Both the position numbers and the translations under genes were made by a program. From the NCBI GenBank assembly GCA_015351705.1, contig JADIIM010000045.1, positions 1 to 60,655 on the forward strand: DNA of 60,655 nt. The letters are read 5' to 3'. The stretch comes from Aeromicrobium sp. (GTDB lineage Bacteria > Actinomycetota > Coriobacteriia > Anaerosomatales > Anaerosomataceae). Positions 4,478 through 11,401 of the stretch are shown piece after piece (the first letter of the stretch is position 1; every line of letters begins with the position of its first letter). Below the pieces are notes generated by a model that had not been told where the DNA came from, made no database searches, and saw only the letters and a program-made list of their open reading frames with translations.

Positions 4478-7400
4478 CTACTCAAGCAGCTGTGGTGCAG
4501 CCACCGCCTCGGCGATCGCCTGGTTGTGCTCGAAGACGTAGGGCATGATGCGACGGAGGTATGTGTCCATCTCGTACTTCGACGCATCGTCCACCGTCGG
4601 ATCGAACAGCCCCTCATCGTTCCAGCAGACGTACGCCTTGGAGGCGTCCGCCGAGAGCTTCACCTGGGCCTCGCCCTGCATCGACTCTCCCTTGCACAGG
4701 TAGAACGGTCGGAAGACCGTCTCGCCCGCGTGATTGCCGGAGCTGTCGATCGGGACCGTCTTCTCCTCGAAGACCCACGTGTCGCCCCAGTCGACGCTGT
4801 AGGTGTACATCAGGTCGAGCGGCATCTTCCCGTGGTCCTCTTCGTCCTCCGATTCCTGGTTTCCGTGGATCATGCCGTGCGTGGCGCCAGTACCGAACGT
4901 AAGCCACATGTTGGAGAGGTCCTCCGCATCCTCGGGATACGCCGACCCCGCCACCACAGGCCCCGGAGGTACGATGCGCGGCTCGATCACGTTCTCGCGG
5001 TTGTTGGTGAACTTGGAGATGTTGCGCGCCGGCTCGAAGCCGCCGGCCGGGATGCTGACCGTGACCTCCACACTCGGCTCCACGCCGATGGTCGACTCGT
5101 TGGCGCGTGGATTGCGGAACACCTCGGACCACACTGCGCCCTGGCCGGCATACTCGTACACGCCGTACTTGTCGGTCGCGGGCGTGGTGGTGAAGGTCTT
5201 CCCGCCGTCGAACGAGCGACGCACGTACAGGTTGTAGATGTCGTTGCCGTTGCGCGCCGAGCGCCAGTTCGGCGTCCACGTGTAACCGATCACCAGCAGT
5301 TCACCGCGCAGATACCCGCGCTGTGCCTGCGCGTTGTCCCACGCGTACTCCCACGAGTAGTCGTTCAGGTTGGTAGCGTCCTGCGTCCAGCGCACCAGCT
5401 TGATGCCCTTGTCCGGGTCCTCCTGATCCGGGTTCTCCCAGAACCCGCCGGGATAGTCCGGGTGGTCTGCCGGAGTGACCGCACTCACGTTCAGTGACCC
5501 TGGCGCAATGCGCGCGGGAGCGTACGGATTGCCGGTCTGCCACACACCACTGACCTTCTTGATCGGCCATCTCCTGATGAAGATGTCCGAGGGCCCACCG
5601 CGGCCGGCCTCACCCTGCTTGTAGACCATGACTATGACGGTACCCTCGGTCTTGGTGCCCGAGTTGTCTCGCTTGGCCATCTCGGCACCCTGGACGAGGA
5701 AGCGGGGGCGACGTGCGTTCTCGTATGCCGGGATGCGGTCGCCCCTCCAGTCGAGCATCTCGGTGCCGTCCTCGTTGAGCACCCATGCGGGCTCGAGCGT
5801 CTCCGGATCCACCGCCTGGAGGTTGAGGATCTTCCCACCGTGGACACGGTCCGGGCTCATCATGTCGAAGCTGTGGTAGACGATGTTCTTGCCGATGTCC
5901 GGCTTGTAGCGGCCGCCGCCCTTCTCCTCGTCCGGATCAGGCGTCTCGGTGCTCTCATCAGATGCGTACGGGTCGGGCACCTGGTAGGCGTGGGCGTCGG
6001 CGTGGCAGTTGATGCACTGCTCCTCGTCCCAGCGCCCGTCGTGCATGATGCCGTGGCAGTCGGCACACGGCGAATCACTCACCGCGTCATCGCAGTCAGA
6101 CACGGAGTCCCCATCCTCGTGGTCAGGGTCGTCGGTGTCGTGGTGCGCCTGCGGCATGCCGCCGCCGAGGCCCTTGCTCTCCTCGTAGGCGAGGATCACC
6201 CACGCGCTCTTCTTGCCGTCGGGCTTGGTGTAGCCCTGGAGGAACAACGCAGGCCTGGTCGAGGCCGTGTCACCGTCGAGCAAGCGCCCGTCTGCGGTGA
6301 TGGCGACCTTCTTGGGCACGCCCTTCTTGTTGACCGTCTCGTGCCAATCCGCGATGACCCCGGGGACCTTGTACGCGTAGTTGTGCGTCCCGACCTCGCG
6401 CACCTCTCCGGTCTCCTCGTCGACTTCGGTGATCGGCGTCCAGGTGGACGGATCGAGCGGGTCGCCCTTGGGGTAACCGACCTGCTCGGTGGTGCAGAGC
6501 GACGCCTCGACATCCGCGTCCGTCCACACCTCGACCTTGATGTTGTTGGTGTTGATCGTCTCGTTGTCGGTCACGCGGACCGGCAGTGCGAACGGGACGA
6601 GCGCCTTCGGGCGACCGCGCATCTCCTCGTCGTCTGGCCAGTCGTGCGACGGATCGCCGCCCGACACCCAGTCGTAGTCGATGTCGTCGAAGTCGTCCAT
6701 ATGGATGTAGCTGTACCAGACGTCGGTGCCATGACTTGCGATGGCTCCGCTCCAGCCAACGCCGGAGCCCTTGCCCTGCCCGGGGCGGATGCCCTCGGGA
6801 TCCTCCTGCCAGGCAATGGCGAAGCCGGCGAGGTTGCCCGCCGATGCCTCAACGAGCTGCATCGCGTTACGGCGACCCGAGGTCAGCCGCTCGGGCTTGT
6901 ACCAGACGATGTCGCCCGTGGCTTTGTCGATCACGCCGCGCTGAGTCCAGACCGCGTTGTACGGGAGCTCACCCACCTCTGGGAACCCTTTGTCGACGTA
7001 CGTGTAGTCGGTGGAGCGCTGCGGACCGCCCACGCCCCAGATGTCTTCGACGTAGTAGGGATGCGTCGTCTCGAGCGAGTACCGAGGCTTGCCGCTCTTG
7101 GCGTACTTGCTCGTCCACACGATGAGGATCTTGTTGTCCTTCACGTGCAGCGATGGCTTCTCGCACCCGCCGTAGAACTCCTGACCGTTGGCCAGCGTGA
7201 ATGACGAGCGATCTGCGCTCCGCGAGAGGTTCTTCCGCTTCCACGTCTCGCCATCGTCGCGCGATACCGCCGCCCAGACGTCGAGCGCACCGGTGTCCGG
7301 ATGCTCGTCCAGGTAGCACATCACGATCGGCTGCGCCTCATCGCGCGTGCCGATGAGATCGCCGTGCTCGTCGTGATACTCGATCGTCGTGGTCGTGCCA

Positions 7401-8584
7401 TCCGAGCGACGCGCCTCGATATAGAAGGGAGCGAGCTCGATGCGAGACTTCGTCGTGAAGAGATCCGGCGTCTTCGAGACGTTCTTCTCGAACTTCGCGT
7501 TGACCGACTCGAGCGTCTTGGCGAGGTTCGCCAGTGCCTCCTCCTTGGACACCTTGACGAGTGTCACGCCCTCGACACCGGCCATCTTCGCGTGCACCCC
7601 GTCGATCAGGAACGTGATCATCTCGGTGTCGGTGAAGTCGTACCCCTCGAAGTCCCCGTCGTTCTCGGCATCGGCCCACTCCTGTGCGGTCGCTTTGAGC
7701 GCATCCTGGACCGATCCCGGTATCGAGATGCGGTTCGACGGCTTGCCGTCAGCGTCCAGGCTCTGGAGAAGCCGTGCCATGTTGGCCACGCGGATGTCGT
7801 CGATCTCGGCTGTCTGGAAGATGTCGAGCGGCGATATCTTCTGCTTGCCGAGCGCCGATCCGATCGGCCAGCCCGCGAGACTGAGCTCGACCGTCTCACC
7901 CGGGTAGTACAGGAACGAGCCGGAGTCGTCCGTCACGCTCTTGAACGTCCGGGTGCGATAGCCGAGCCCGCCCACCGGCGAGTCTATGAAGTGACCTCGG
8001 CCGGGACGCTCCAGCTTGTAGCTGAACCAGGCACCGACCGCAGGTGTCTTGGGAACGAAGAAGCGGGCCCCCTCGGCCCAGGCGCCCTCGGTCGCCCGTG
8101 TCTTGAGGTTGATGAGCGACACGTGCACGGCGATGTTCTGAACATGGAGCGCCGTGTACGGCCGGCCCCACTTCACGCCAAGGTCCTGGGTGAGGTCGAG
8201 TACCAGATGGTGCTCCGGCACCGGCGATGCGTACGTCGTCTTGTACGGGAACTTGCCCGGCGCCGGCTGGCCTTTCAGGTTTACCGGGATCGGATCGGCC
8301 CCCACATAGACCTGCACCTCGGCGATCGCGTAGCCGGCGGGCAGAACGTCGATGTAGATCTTGCGCTGGTCGTTATAGACCTCGACCTCACCGACATCGA
8401 TGAGCTTGCCCCCCGAGAGCAGGTCGGCCACGTACTTGCCTGGCCCGAAATCTGCGACCGTCGGGCTGTCCGCTGCGAACACGGGTGGCATGAGTGAAGC
8501 TACAAGCATCAGTGCGAGTGATACGGCGACGATCCGTTGCTGGTGATGACGTCGTGAGGCGCCCGGACTGAGGTGTCCCTCCAT
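4478..8584 (-). CDS. Very large secreted di-heme protein with Asp-box-like repeats
   Basis: A 1368-residue exported protein. The start at 8584 has GGGAGG four bases upstream and opens a signal peptide ending near SLMPPVFA. The middle contains several Asp-box/BNR-like turns (SRDDGETWK, SFDGGKTF, SVDWGDTW) of the kind seen in sialidase-type propellers. Two c-type heme motifs, CADCH (residues 840-844) and CINCH (857-861), lie 12 residues apart in a segment rich in Asp, Glu and His. No C-terminal membrane or sorting anchor is visible. It resembles large uncharacterised heme-bearing surface proteins of metal-reducing anaerobes; an extracellular electron-transfer or substrate-binding role is inference only. 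Its leader carries a riboswitch-like element. Confidence 0.75.
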   Translation of the reverse strand: MEGHLSPGASRRHHQQRIVAVSLALMLVASLMPPVFAADSPTVADFGPGKYVADLLSGGKLIDVGEVEVYNDQRKIYIDVLPAGYAIAEVQVYVGADPIPVNLKGQPAPGKFPYKTTYASPVPEHHLVLDLTQDLGVKWGRPYTALHVQNIAVHVSLINLKTRATEGAWAEGARFFVPKTPAVGAWFSYKLERPGRGHFIDSPVGGLGYRTRTFKSVTDDSGSFLYYPGETVELSLAGWPIGSALGKQKISPLDIFQTAEIDDIRVANMARLLQSLDADGKPSNRISIPGSVQDALKATAQEWADAENDGDFEGYDFTDTEMITFLIDGVHAKMAGVEGVTLVKVSKEEALANLAKTLESVNAKFEKNVSKTPDLFTTKSRIELAPFYIEARRSDGTTTTIEYHDEHGDLIGTRDEAQPIVMCYLDEHPDTGALDVWAAVSRDDGETWKRKNLSRSADRSSFTLANGQEFYGGCEKPSLHVKDNKILIVWTSKYAKSGKPRYSLETTHPYYVEDIWGVGGPQRSTDYTYVDKGFPEVGELPYNAVWTQRGVIDKATGDIVWYKPERLTSGRRNAMQLVEASAGNLAGFAIAWQEDPEGIRPGQGKGSGVGWSGAIASHGTDVWYSYIHMDDFDDIDYDWVSGGDPSHDWPDDEEMRGRPKALVPFALPVRVTDNETINTNNIKVEVWTDADVEASLCTTEQVGYPKGDPLDPSTWTPITEVDEETGEVREVGTHNYAYKVPGVIADWHETVNKKGVPKKVAITADGRLLDGDTASTRPALFLQGYTKPDGKKSAWVILAYEESKGLGGGMPQAHHDTDDPDHEDGDSVSDCDDAVSDSPCADCHGIMHDGRWDEEQCINCHADAHAYQVPDPYASDESTETPDPDEEKGGGRYKPDIGKNIVYHSFDMMSPDRVHGGKILNLQAVDPETLEPAWVLNEDGTEMLDWRGDRIPAYENARRPRFLVQGAEMAKRDNSGTKTEGTVIVMVYKQGEAGRGGPSDIFIRRWPIKKVSGVWQTGNPYAPARIAPGSLNVSAVTPADHPDYPGGFWENPDQEDPDKGIKLVRWTQDATNLNDYSWEYAWDNAQAQRGYLRGELLVIGYTWTPNWRSARNGNDIYNLYVRRSFDGGKTFTTTPATDKYGVYEYAGQGAVWSEVFRNPRANESTIGVEPSVEVTVSIPAGGFEPARNISKFTNNRENVIEPRIVPPGPVVAGSAYPEDAEDLSNMWLTFGTGATHGMIHGNQESEDEEDHGKMPLDLMYTYSVDWGDTWVFEEKTVPIDSSGNHAGETVFRPFYLCKGESMQGEAQVKLSADASKAYVCWNDEGLFDPTVDDASKYEMDTYLRRIMPYVFEHNQAIAEAVAAPQLLE

Positions 8585-8720
8585 GATCCCTCCCCTGGTA
8601 AGACGCCGACGGGACGACGCTGTCGCCCCGGAAGACGGGTCCACCCGACCACCCCCCTCCGACGTCGCGCGGCCGCCCCCGCGGCCACACGCATCGCCTC
8701 TCCTCCGCCACGACCCCATG

Positions 8721-8755
8721 CAACACAAAGACCGACCCAAGAACTGGGTCGGTCT
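8721..8755 (-). terminator. Intrinsic terminator in the leader of the di-heme protein gene
   Basis: Arms 8729-8739 and 8745-8755 form a perfect 11-bp stem with a five-base loop; on the minus strand it is followed by TTGTGTTG. It lies about 140 bases upstream of the start codon and downstream of the predicted promoter, so it is placed to attenuate this gene. Confidence 0.75.
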
Positions 8756-8760
8756 CACCA

Positions 8761-8820
8761 TTGGCTCCCCGCCGGATACTCAGAGGTGACCGGACCTCCG
8801 GCGGCTCACAGCCCCCCAAC
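8761..8820 (-). promoter_or_regulatory. Structured RNA element, candidate riboswitch
   Basis: On the minus strand the segment directly before the terminator has nested pairings: AGCC/GGCT (8810-8813 with 8763-8766), CCGCCGG/CCGGCGG (8798-8804 with 8769-8775) and AGGT/ACCT (8794-8797 with 8784-8787). Conspicuous unpaired purine-rich stretches lie between them (CTGAGTAT, GGGGAGCC). The compact stem with internal loops next to a strong terminator looks like an aptamer with an expression platform. I could not assign it to a known class by eye. Confidence 0.45.
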
Positions 8821-8838
8821 TCGAGTGCGAGCGTACAG

Positions 8839-8868
8839 AGTACATTGCCTTCGTGAACACATTCTCAA
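8839..8868 (-). promoter_or_regulatory. Promoter of the di-heme protein gene
   Basis: TTGAGA (8868-8863) and TGTACT (8844-8839) are 18 bases apart on the minus strand. A start near 8832 gives a leader of roughly 250 bases. Confidence 0.5.
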
Positions 8869-9022: not shown

Positions 9023-11401
9023 TCACATCCCCCGCGCGCGCATCGTCTTGACGACGAAGCTTGCAACGTCGAGGCCCTTGGTCCTGCGGCCGAAGCCCGC
9101 ATCCATGCCGCTCTCCCGCGCGATCTCGTCGGTAACCTGCGTACCTCCGCTGATGAGCAGCAGCTTGCGACGCACGCCCTTCTCTTCGGCCAGGTCGGCG
9201 AGCTTGCGCATCATCTCGCGGTGCACCTCGGCATGCGTGATGATGGTGGAGATGAGCACCACGCTCGCCGCGTGCTCGATGGCGGCGTCGAGTACCTTCT
9301 CGATCGGCACGCTCGTGCCGAGATACGTGACCGCGAAGCCCCACTTCTCCAGACCGCCATGCTTGATATCGATGATCTCGCGCATGCCCACCGAATGTTC
9401 GTCGTTGCCGACGGTGGCAGCCACACATCGCAACTCGCGCTCGTGCACGAACTCGCGGATCTCCTCGTCTGAGAGCACGTCCGGCGGCTCGGGGATCACG
9501 AGCGTGGCGGGGTCGATGGTCACCTCGAGACGCCCCTTGAGCTCGAGGAGCGTGCCTTCGGCCGGGTGCATCACGCGCTTGTGGATGACCTCGCAGTCGG
9601 CCAGGTTCATAGCGGCGCCCAGCTCAAGCGCGGCCGCCTCGGCCACTGCCTCGGCGGCGGGCAGGAACATGGTCACAACCACCACGCCGTCGCCCGCCCA
9701 CTCCACTTCGGGCTTGATGAGACCGCGCTCGCGGAGTTCTGCGGTCTGTGTAAGCCGCGTGGCGGCGTTGTCCGTGGGATCGAGCTCGTCGATGAACGGC
9801 ACCTTGGCGTCGTCGCACAGCGTGCAACTGCCGATGACGTCACACGGACGCGCGCCGCGCGACGCGCGGTCGCTGTCCAGCGCGGCGGCGTCGGCTACAA
9901 CGGCCTCCTCGCCCGGCACCGCGGCGCCGAAGCCGGCCAGCAGCTCGAGATGGTTCTCGCCGAAGTGATGGCACACCGGCGCGAGATAGTCGTCCGCACG
10001 CGGCACGATCGAGCCAGCCGCCACGCCGCCGCCGCTGTCGCGACCGATGCCATCGTCGTTGGTCTCCGGGTACTCGCCGCTGTCCACGAAGTACGCCTTC
10101 TCCACGCCCGCGAAATACCCGCCGTCTTCGAGCATGGCTTCGAGGAACAGCACCGCGCGCTCCTTGATCTCGCGCACGCGGCCCTTGAGCTCGGGCGCCT
10201 CGCGATCCACCTTCACCATCTCGCGCAGCCCGTCCATGCCCACCAGCGACTGCTTGGCCGTGTCCACCGCCGCCACGTTGTTGTAGTGCCAGGGCACGTT
10301 GCGGCCCTCGTCGGGCGTGATCGTGGACTGGATGTCCGCCGAGGTGAGCCGCGAGATCAGCAGATTCATCACGTGCGAGACCGTCGCGTCGCGCCCATCG
10401 GACTCCATGTAGCGCGTGTTCTGCTGCGCGCGCATCTTGTACCTACCGAACAGGTCCCGGAGCGCTATCGCGTACGGGAGGTCCATGCGCATGCACGGCG
10501 CGGGCGCCGCGTCCGGTGGAACGGTAGAAAGCGCGATATGATCGGCGGGCATCCCCACCGCCTCGGAGTACGCGCAGTTGATCGCGTGCTGCACCAGCAG
10601 CTCGGGCATGACCTTCCACGCCTTCACGGCCGTGGCGTTGGCGTTGTGCGCGCCGTCGATCTGCAGGATGCCCGCTGCGGCCATCACGTGCTTGGCCACC
10701 GCCGCGTCCACGAAGCTGCGGTACATGTTGATGTTGCGGTACAGCACGTTGTACTGCGGGTCCTGGTGCGCGCCGTTGACGCCCTCCTCGGCAAAGAGCA
10801 CCGCCATCTCGGGACCCGCCACGCCGCTCACATAGCTGTGGAAGTTGATCGGCCGCCCCACTTCGTCTTCGATCAGGTCGAGCGCGCGGCGCGACAGACG
10901 CAGCTGCTTGCGCGTGATCGCGATGCCGCCCACGCCTTCAGGCGTGCCCTCCAGCAGGCCGTCCATATGGCTCTGGCCGGCGGTGCGGATGACCATGATG
11001 TGGTCTGCACCGTGCCAGGCGGCCATACGCATGCGCCGGATGTCGTCTTCAGGCCTGCCCGAGGCGATCTCGGTGGTGATCACGCAGTCCGGCTGCGGGT
11101 CGATGTCCTCGAAGTAGTGCGCCGCCGGAAGCGGGACGCTCCGCGCGAGCGGCTCGGCCGTCTCGTGGTAGGTGAACTCGTAGTGCCGCTGCTCCGGCAC
11201 GAGCGTGCGCCAGATCCAGCCACGCCGGCGCGGCCGGTAGTGCTCGAGTCCCTCGAGCAGTGACTCCACATCCAGCTTCACGCATGGATCGAGCGGGGGG
11301 TCGGCAAGAGGACGGCCGAAACGGGGGTCAGCGCTCACGTCGTCGGCCGGATACGGACGGTCCGCGTCGCACCCCGGGGCGTGCGTCTGCCGCTCGCTCA
11401 T
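9023..11401 (-). CDS. oraE: D-ornithine 4,5-aminomutase, large subunit OraE
   Basis: A 792-residue subunit that binds both adenosylcobalamin and PLP and moves the terminal amino group of D-ornithine to give 2,4-diaminopentanoate. The C-terminal Rossmann domain has the base-off B12 motif DEHSVG at residues 667-672 (His669). Lys680 lies 11 residues later, the same spacing as between the cobalamin histidine and the PLP-forming lysine of the Clostridium sticklandii enzyme. The N-terminal part is the TIM-barrel catalytic domain. Its ATG overlaps the oraS stop (ATGA), so the subunits are translated together. It belongs to the oxidative ornithine pathway with ord, ortA and ortB upstream. Confidence 0.95.
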   Translation of the reverse strand: MSERQTHAPGCDADRPYPADDVSADPRFGRPLADPPLDPCVKLDVESLLEGLEHYRPRRRGWIWRTLVPEQRHYEFTYHETAEPLARSVPLPAAHYFEDIDPQPDCVITTEIASGRPEDDIRRMRMAAWHGADHIMVIRTAGQSHMDGLLEGTPEGVGGIAITRKQLRLSRRALDLIEDEVGRPINFHSYVSGVAGPEMAVLFAEEGVNGAHQDPQYNVLYRNINMYRSFVDAAVAKHVMAAAGILQIDGAHNANATAVKAWKVMPELLVQHAINCAYSEAVGMPADHIALSTVPPDAAPAPCMRMDLPYAIALRDLFGRYKMRAQQNTRYMESDGRDATVSHVMNLLISRLTSADIQSTITPDEGRNVPWHYNNVAAVDTAKQSLVGMDGLREMVKVDREAPELKGRVREIKERAVLFLEAMLEDGGYFAGVEKAYFVDSGEYPETNDDGIGRDSGGGVAAGSIVPRADDYLAPVCHHFGENHLELLAGFGAAVPGEEAVVADAAALDSDRASRGARPCDVIGSCTLCDDAKVPFIDELDPTDNAATRLTQTAELRERGLIKPEVEWAGDGVVVVTMFLPAAEAVAEAAALELGAAMNLADCEVIHKRVMHPAEGTLLELKGRLEVTIDPATLVIPEPPDVLSDEEIREFVHERELRCVAATVGNDEHSVGMREIIDIKHGGLEKWGFAVTYLGTSVPIEKVLDAAIEHAASVVLISTIITHAEVHREMMRKLADLAEEKGVRRKLLLISGGTQVTDEIARESGMDAGFGRRTKGLDVASFVVKTMRARGM

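Follow-up and report, generated by a model that had tools for sequence, protein, structure and literature searches.

Computational analysis placed the RNA leader ahead of a large surface-protein gene in our window (the whole analyzed stretch of 60,655 nt) in an already catalogued, little-studied riboswitch variant, c-di-GMP-II-GAG, and on balance we favor the reading that this riboswitch works as a transcriptional ON switch of the gene. The leader lies in the intergenic region that separates an ornithine-aminomutase-like gene (positions 9023-11401) from a gene for a 1368-aa protein (8584-4478). A search against 4227 Rfam families matched its minus strand at 8738-8825 to c-di-GMP-II-GAG (RF03169) with 62.4 bits and an E-value of 4.9e-10, compared with a family cut-off of 40 bits, and the match spanned the full length of the model (1-86). 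In contrast, the canonical c-di-GMP-II family (RF01786) scored 48.3 bits, which is under its cut-off of 53.5 bits. The variant is said to have been named by Weinberg et al. in 2017. A preliminary description of this DNA had proposed a compact structured leader of the second-messenger riboswitch type preceding a large extracellular di-haem protein, and this was right. That description had also considered the class to be unknown, and had suggested an Rfam search in which a hit to a known class would count against it; since RF03169 matches the leader, the class is known and this part of the description falls.

The gene behind the leader (4478-8584, minus strand) encodes a secreted protein with a signal-peptide-like N-terminus that belongs to the choice-of-anchor O family (NCBIfam NF040591; 491.3 bits against a curated cut-off of 125, E-value 5.2e-147). 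Two CxxCH motifs, CADCH and CINCH, are encoded at about 5980-6100, and no significant Pfam domain was found in the protein. A Shine-Dalgarno-like sequence, GGGGAGGG, is present at 8588-8595. It is this large haem-carrying surface protein that the riboswitch probably switches on.

Whether the fold is conserved was a point raised in the preliminary description, and conservation was evident in an alignment of 81 distinct GAG aptamers gathered from relatives. The named structure was paired in 79% of cells, compared with 31-44% when the partner strand was slid as a control, and 22 of the 29 pairs varied on both sides. In the window, the 5′ strand of P1 (GGG, 8815-8817) pairs with CCC at 8746-8748, and these inner three pairs were found in 94% of cells; the outer eight P1 pairs of the Rfam model were paired in only 42% of cells and are not supported in these relatives. 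The 5′ strand of P2 (8811-8813) pairs with 8763-8765 (91% of cells, with compensatory changes), and that of P3 (8797-8804) pairs with 8769-8776 (77-87% of cells, with both-side changes in all pairs). The pseudoknot joins a loop strand, CGGUCACC (8785-8792), to a 3′ strand, GGUGAGACCG (8750-8759). Its pairs were present in 99.8% of cells and hardly varied, with CGGUCAC of the loop and GUGAGACCG of the 3′ strand invariant in all 81 relatives. The window aptamer is the same as RF03169 in sequence, fold and pseudoknot, and it carries the GAG signature (8754-8756, equivalent to positions 67-69) together with the fitting CGGUC loop. Folding of the whole leader beat that of shuffled sequences (z = −2.4). 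A folding energy that is only moderately unusual would also be compatible with a chance fold or an artefact, but this explanation is refuted by the E-value of the match over all families searched and by the covariation among the relatives, and we give it practically no credence.

Position numbers in the binding pocket follow the 3Q3Z sequence, a register that is consistent with the published list of contacts and with the RF01786 alignment. The ligand contacts listed for 3Q3Z are A13, A14, U37, G39, U60, A61, C68, A69, A70, C71, C72, G73 and A74 (PMC7288161). The overall architecture and most of these pocket residues are common to the canonical and window aptamers, with A70, C71, C72 and G73 identical. 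However, three listed contacts are altered in the GAG variant (U37C, C68A and A69G), and beside them G40U changes one partner base, such that the window aptamer has C, U, A and G where RF01786 has U, G, C and A at positions 37, 40, 68 and 69 (C37 is equivalent to 8792). The 37:69 and 40:68 pairs change jointly between the two types with complementarity retained. The preliminary description had noted that the leader departs from the c-di-GMP consensus; this was correct, and the misfit is due to the defining change of the variant, in which GAG replaces GCA on the pocket strand and C37 replaces U37. A further difference lies at the equivalent of contact A13 (8814; contact from PMC7288161), where most GAG relatives have A (66 of 81) whereas the window copy and the other four choice-of-anchor O leaders, one of them (L096) possibly misaligned there, have G, as do 14 of the 81 GAG aptamers overall. 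Because U37C, C68A and A69G, and in the window copy A13G, alter the contacts, c-di-GMP binding cannot be assumed. Rare GAG relatives (L278, L287 and L159) have CGGCCAC, CGGGCAC or UGGUCAC as the loop and lack the match that is usual at 40:68 or 37:69.

The end of the aptamer overlaps an intrinsic terminator. The hairpin (8728-8756, minus strand) has 12 bp and a folding energy of −21.4 kcal/mol (z = −6.1), and it runs into a U-rich tail, UUUGUGUU (8722-8729), the first two U residues of which also close the hairpin. The preliminary description had placed a strong terminator at 8721-8755, far upstream of the start. Hairpin and tail do occupy 8722-8756, upstream of the start at 8584, but they are not separate from the aptamer: the 5′ arm, GAGACCGACCCA, is the aptamer's own pseudoknot and P1 strand, which carries G69-A70-C71-C72-G73 in the ligand-bound form. 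An automatic terminator scan of the leader did not report the hairpin at 8722-8756 because a G residue interrupts its U tract. A terminator whose 5′ arm lies within the ligand-binding strand is the arrangement expected of a transcription-terminating ON switch. Without ligand, GAGACCGACCCA would pair with the following UGGGUCGGUCUU to make the terminator, and transcription would halt ahead of the gene. With ligand bound, P1 and the pseudoknot would hold this same strand, so that no terminator could form and the di-haem surface protein of the choice-of-anchor O family would be expressed. Since the strand is shared, ligand binding and termination would be mutually exclusive, and from this overlap we infer the ON direction.

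Matches were found in 52 of 398 genomes of the class Coriobacteriia, and 51 of these genomes belong to Anaerosomatales, the order of the host. The 117 readable aptamers of this order fell into 82 of the GAG type (GAGACC) and 35 of the canonical GCA type (GCAACC) with no intermediates, and the loop was CGGUCAC in every GAG aptamer and UGGGC[A/G]C in every GCA aptamer. In the loci tested, the GCA type was canonical c-di-GMP-II (RF01786). Overlap of a terminator with the aptamer, including a T-rich tail, was found at 64 of the 82 GAG loci and 20 of the 35 GCA loci, compared with 9 of 351 controls in which the downstream sequence was shuffled; canonical aptamers in the same genomes have the same architecture. 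Most loci also have a downstream gene on the same strand with a signal-peptide-like N-terminus. A structured leader without a small-molecule ligand, acting as an attenuator or simply as a terminator of read-through, would account for the strong terminator in the window and for a promoter that is not recognizable there. It would not explain why the leader matches a riboswitch family over its full length, with pocket and pseudoknot both conserved, or why the same unit recurs ahead of many unrelated genes, and we consider it improbable.

The promoter that the preliminary description had placed before the leader did not appear in our analysis. A consensus scan of the window leader found none, and the best upstream pair scored only 7 of 12; no sigma-70 promoter was thus found for this leader. 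Among loci L001-L118, a sigma-70-like promoter at 30-60 nt upstream is typical of GCA leaders (a score of at least 9 in 74%, compared with 1% of controls) but not of GAG leaders (2% compared with 3% of controls). The sequence GGGTAT is present in 25 of the 82 GAG upstream regions, and a CRP-like motif, GTG(A/T)-N6-(A/T)CAC, is present in 23 of the 35 GCA upstream regions.

The two aptamer types precede different genes. GAG aptamers are mostly found ahead of adhesin-like surface proteins, whereas GCA aptamers are found ahead of multihaem cytochromes: at least eight CxxCH motifs were counted in 27 of 30 genes following GCA aptamers and in 0 of 79 following GAG aptamers (Fisher p = 1.5e-22), where the genes were picked by script and the counts are lower bounds because many genes were cut by the fetched stretch. 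Pfam Cytochrome_C7 was identified in 27 of the 30 GCA-linked genes, while SdrD_B and SpaA were identified in 37 and 33, respectively, of 68 GAG-linked genes. All 27 cytochromes belong to a single homology cluster, so shared ancestry weakens the statistic, and common descent may explain most of it. The GAG-linked genes form 18 clusters. One gene cluster (L033, L095 and L100) has both aptamer types upstream. Exceptions to the split are the GCA aptamers of L095, L100 and L112, which lie ahead of genes without CxxCH, two in a cluster of the PKD/fn3 type and one other. Both types occur together in 27 genomes. The host genome is among them and fits the split, with GAG aptamers in the window and at L002 (adhesin-like) and a GCA aptamer at L003. 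The last of these (L003:1501-1583, contig C59) is canonical, with an RF01786 score of 60.1 bits, and precedes a 450-aa gene with 14 CxxCH motifs. This division of regulons may be previously undescribed.

The ligand is the least certain inferred part of our explanation, although c-di-GMP itself is the probable one. Canonical GGDEF proteins were found in all 69 Anaerosomatales genomes, and matches in the host genome number 14 for GGDEF and 2 for EAL; of these 14, 12 were read, and all have Asp at the selectivity position. In Hypr-type GGDEF proteins, which synthesize cGAMP, this position is Ser (PMC6456294). No such protein was found by pattern in the 69 Anaerosomatales genomes or in 28 other GAG genomes, as the pattern matches in 8 of the 69 do not read as GGDEF proteins; 3′,3′-cGAMP from a Hypr GGDEF was therefore rejected as the ligand, and genome content gives no reason to class the aptamer as a cGAMP sensor. 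CD-NTases (SMODS-type) occur in only 4 of the 69 genomes and were rejected as a general source of ligand. The strict canonical GGDEF pattern was missing from 8 of 28 GAG genomes outside Coriobacteriia. A true absence of GGDEF would have ruled out c-di-GMP, but this argument fails because the PF00990 HMM found one divergent match in each of the eight. In seven of them (the eighth was not readable) this sole match is a Rec-GGDDF response regulator in which the base-recognition residues are still Asn and Asp. Genomes with only this divergent GGDEF were counted against c-di-GMP. Proteins of this type are found at L131, L310-L312 and L314-L317; the L131 protein, a relative at 32% identity from the host genome, has GADDF.

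The same RNA and ON mechanism could operate with a GAG pocket that binds a ligand other than c-di-GMP, giving two separately wired regulons, adhesins and cytochromes. The clean GAG/GCA split at four pocket positions within the same genomes, the different genes controlled, the restriction of sigma-70-like promoters to GCA leaders and the eight genomes with a single divergent GGDEF all favor such a ligand. However, 3′,3′-cGAMP would be without a maker in these genomes, and the changes at 37:69 and 40:68 stay Watson-Crick and may be a structural means of accommodating the same ligand; we regard this explanation as rather unlikely. Slightly easier to entertain, though still tentative, is the proposal that the GAG type senses either another nucleotide signal or c-di-GMP with a threshold clearly unlike that of the GCA type, so that one genome would wire adhesion (GAG) and extracellular electron transfer (GCA) to two variants of the same fold. 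Under our preferred reading, c-di-GMP would serve both types.

In Geobacter, cGAMP (GEMM-Ib) riboswitches are a variant of the c-di-GMP riboswitch that exists alongside the standard one and is tied to surface electron transfer (PMC6456294, PMC8835794). The GAG system is similar in that a variant is co-resident with a standard c-di-GMP riboswitch in a setting of surface electron-transfer biology. However, GEMM-Ib has the class I fold, which is unrelated to the class II fold of the GAG aptamer, and here it is the standard class rather than the variant that precedes cytochromes, with no Hypr synthase found. Cultivated members of the host lineage include an iron reducer (PMC9686372), and through the aptamers both adhesion and multihaem cytochromes of this lineage are tied to a cyclic-dinucleotide switch. 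Canonical and GAG aptamers with one fold, four differing positions in or near the pocket and different surface genes provide a natural comparison within 27 genomes, and the GAG ligand question is therefore directly testable.

GAG aptamers also occur beyond Anaerosomatales, where 29 of 30 genomes found by pattern gave a match; GAGACCG was present in each of the 28 best matches that could be read, and GCA in none. In loci outside Coriobacteriia, the start codon is often 20-45 nt past the aptamer, and purine-rich stretches recognized by eye could pair with its 3′ strand, which suggests translational versions of the switch. At L152 (5316 and 5937, minus strand) and L185, a single adhesin-like gene is preceded by two GAG aptamers with a spacing of about 620 nt, and at L158 and L211 pairs of GAG aptamers lie ahead of successive genes.
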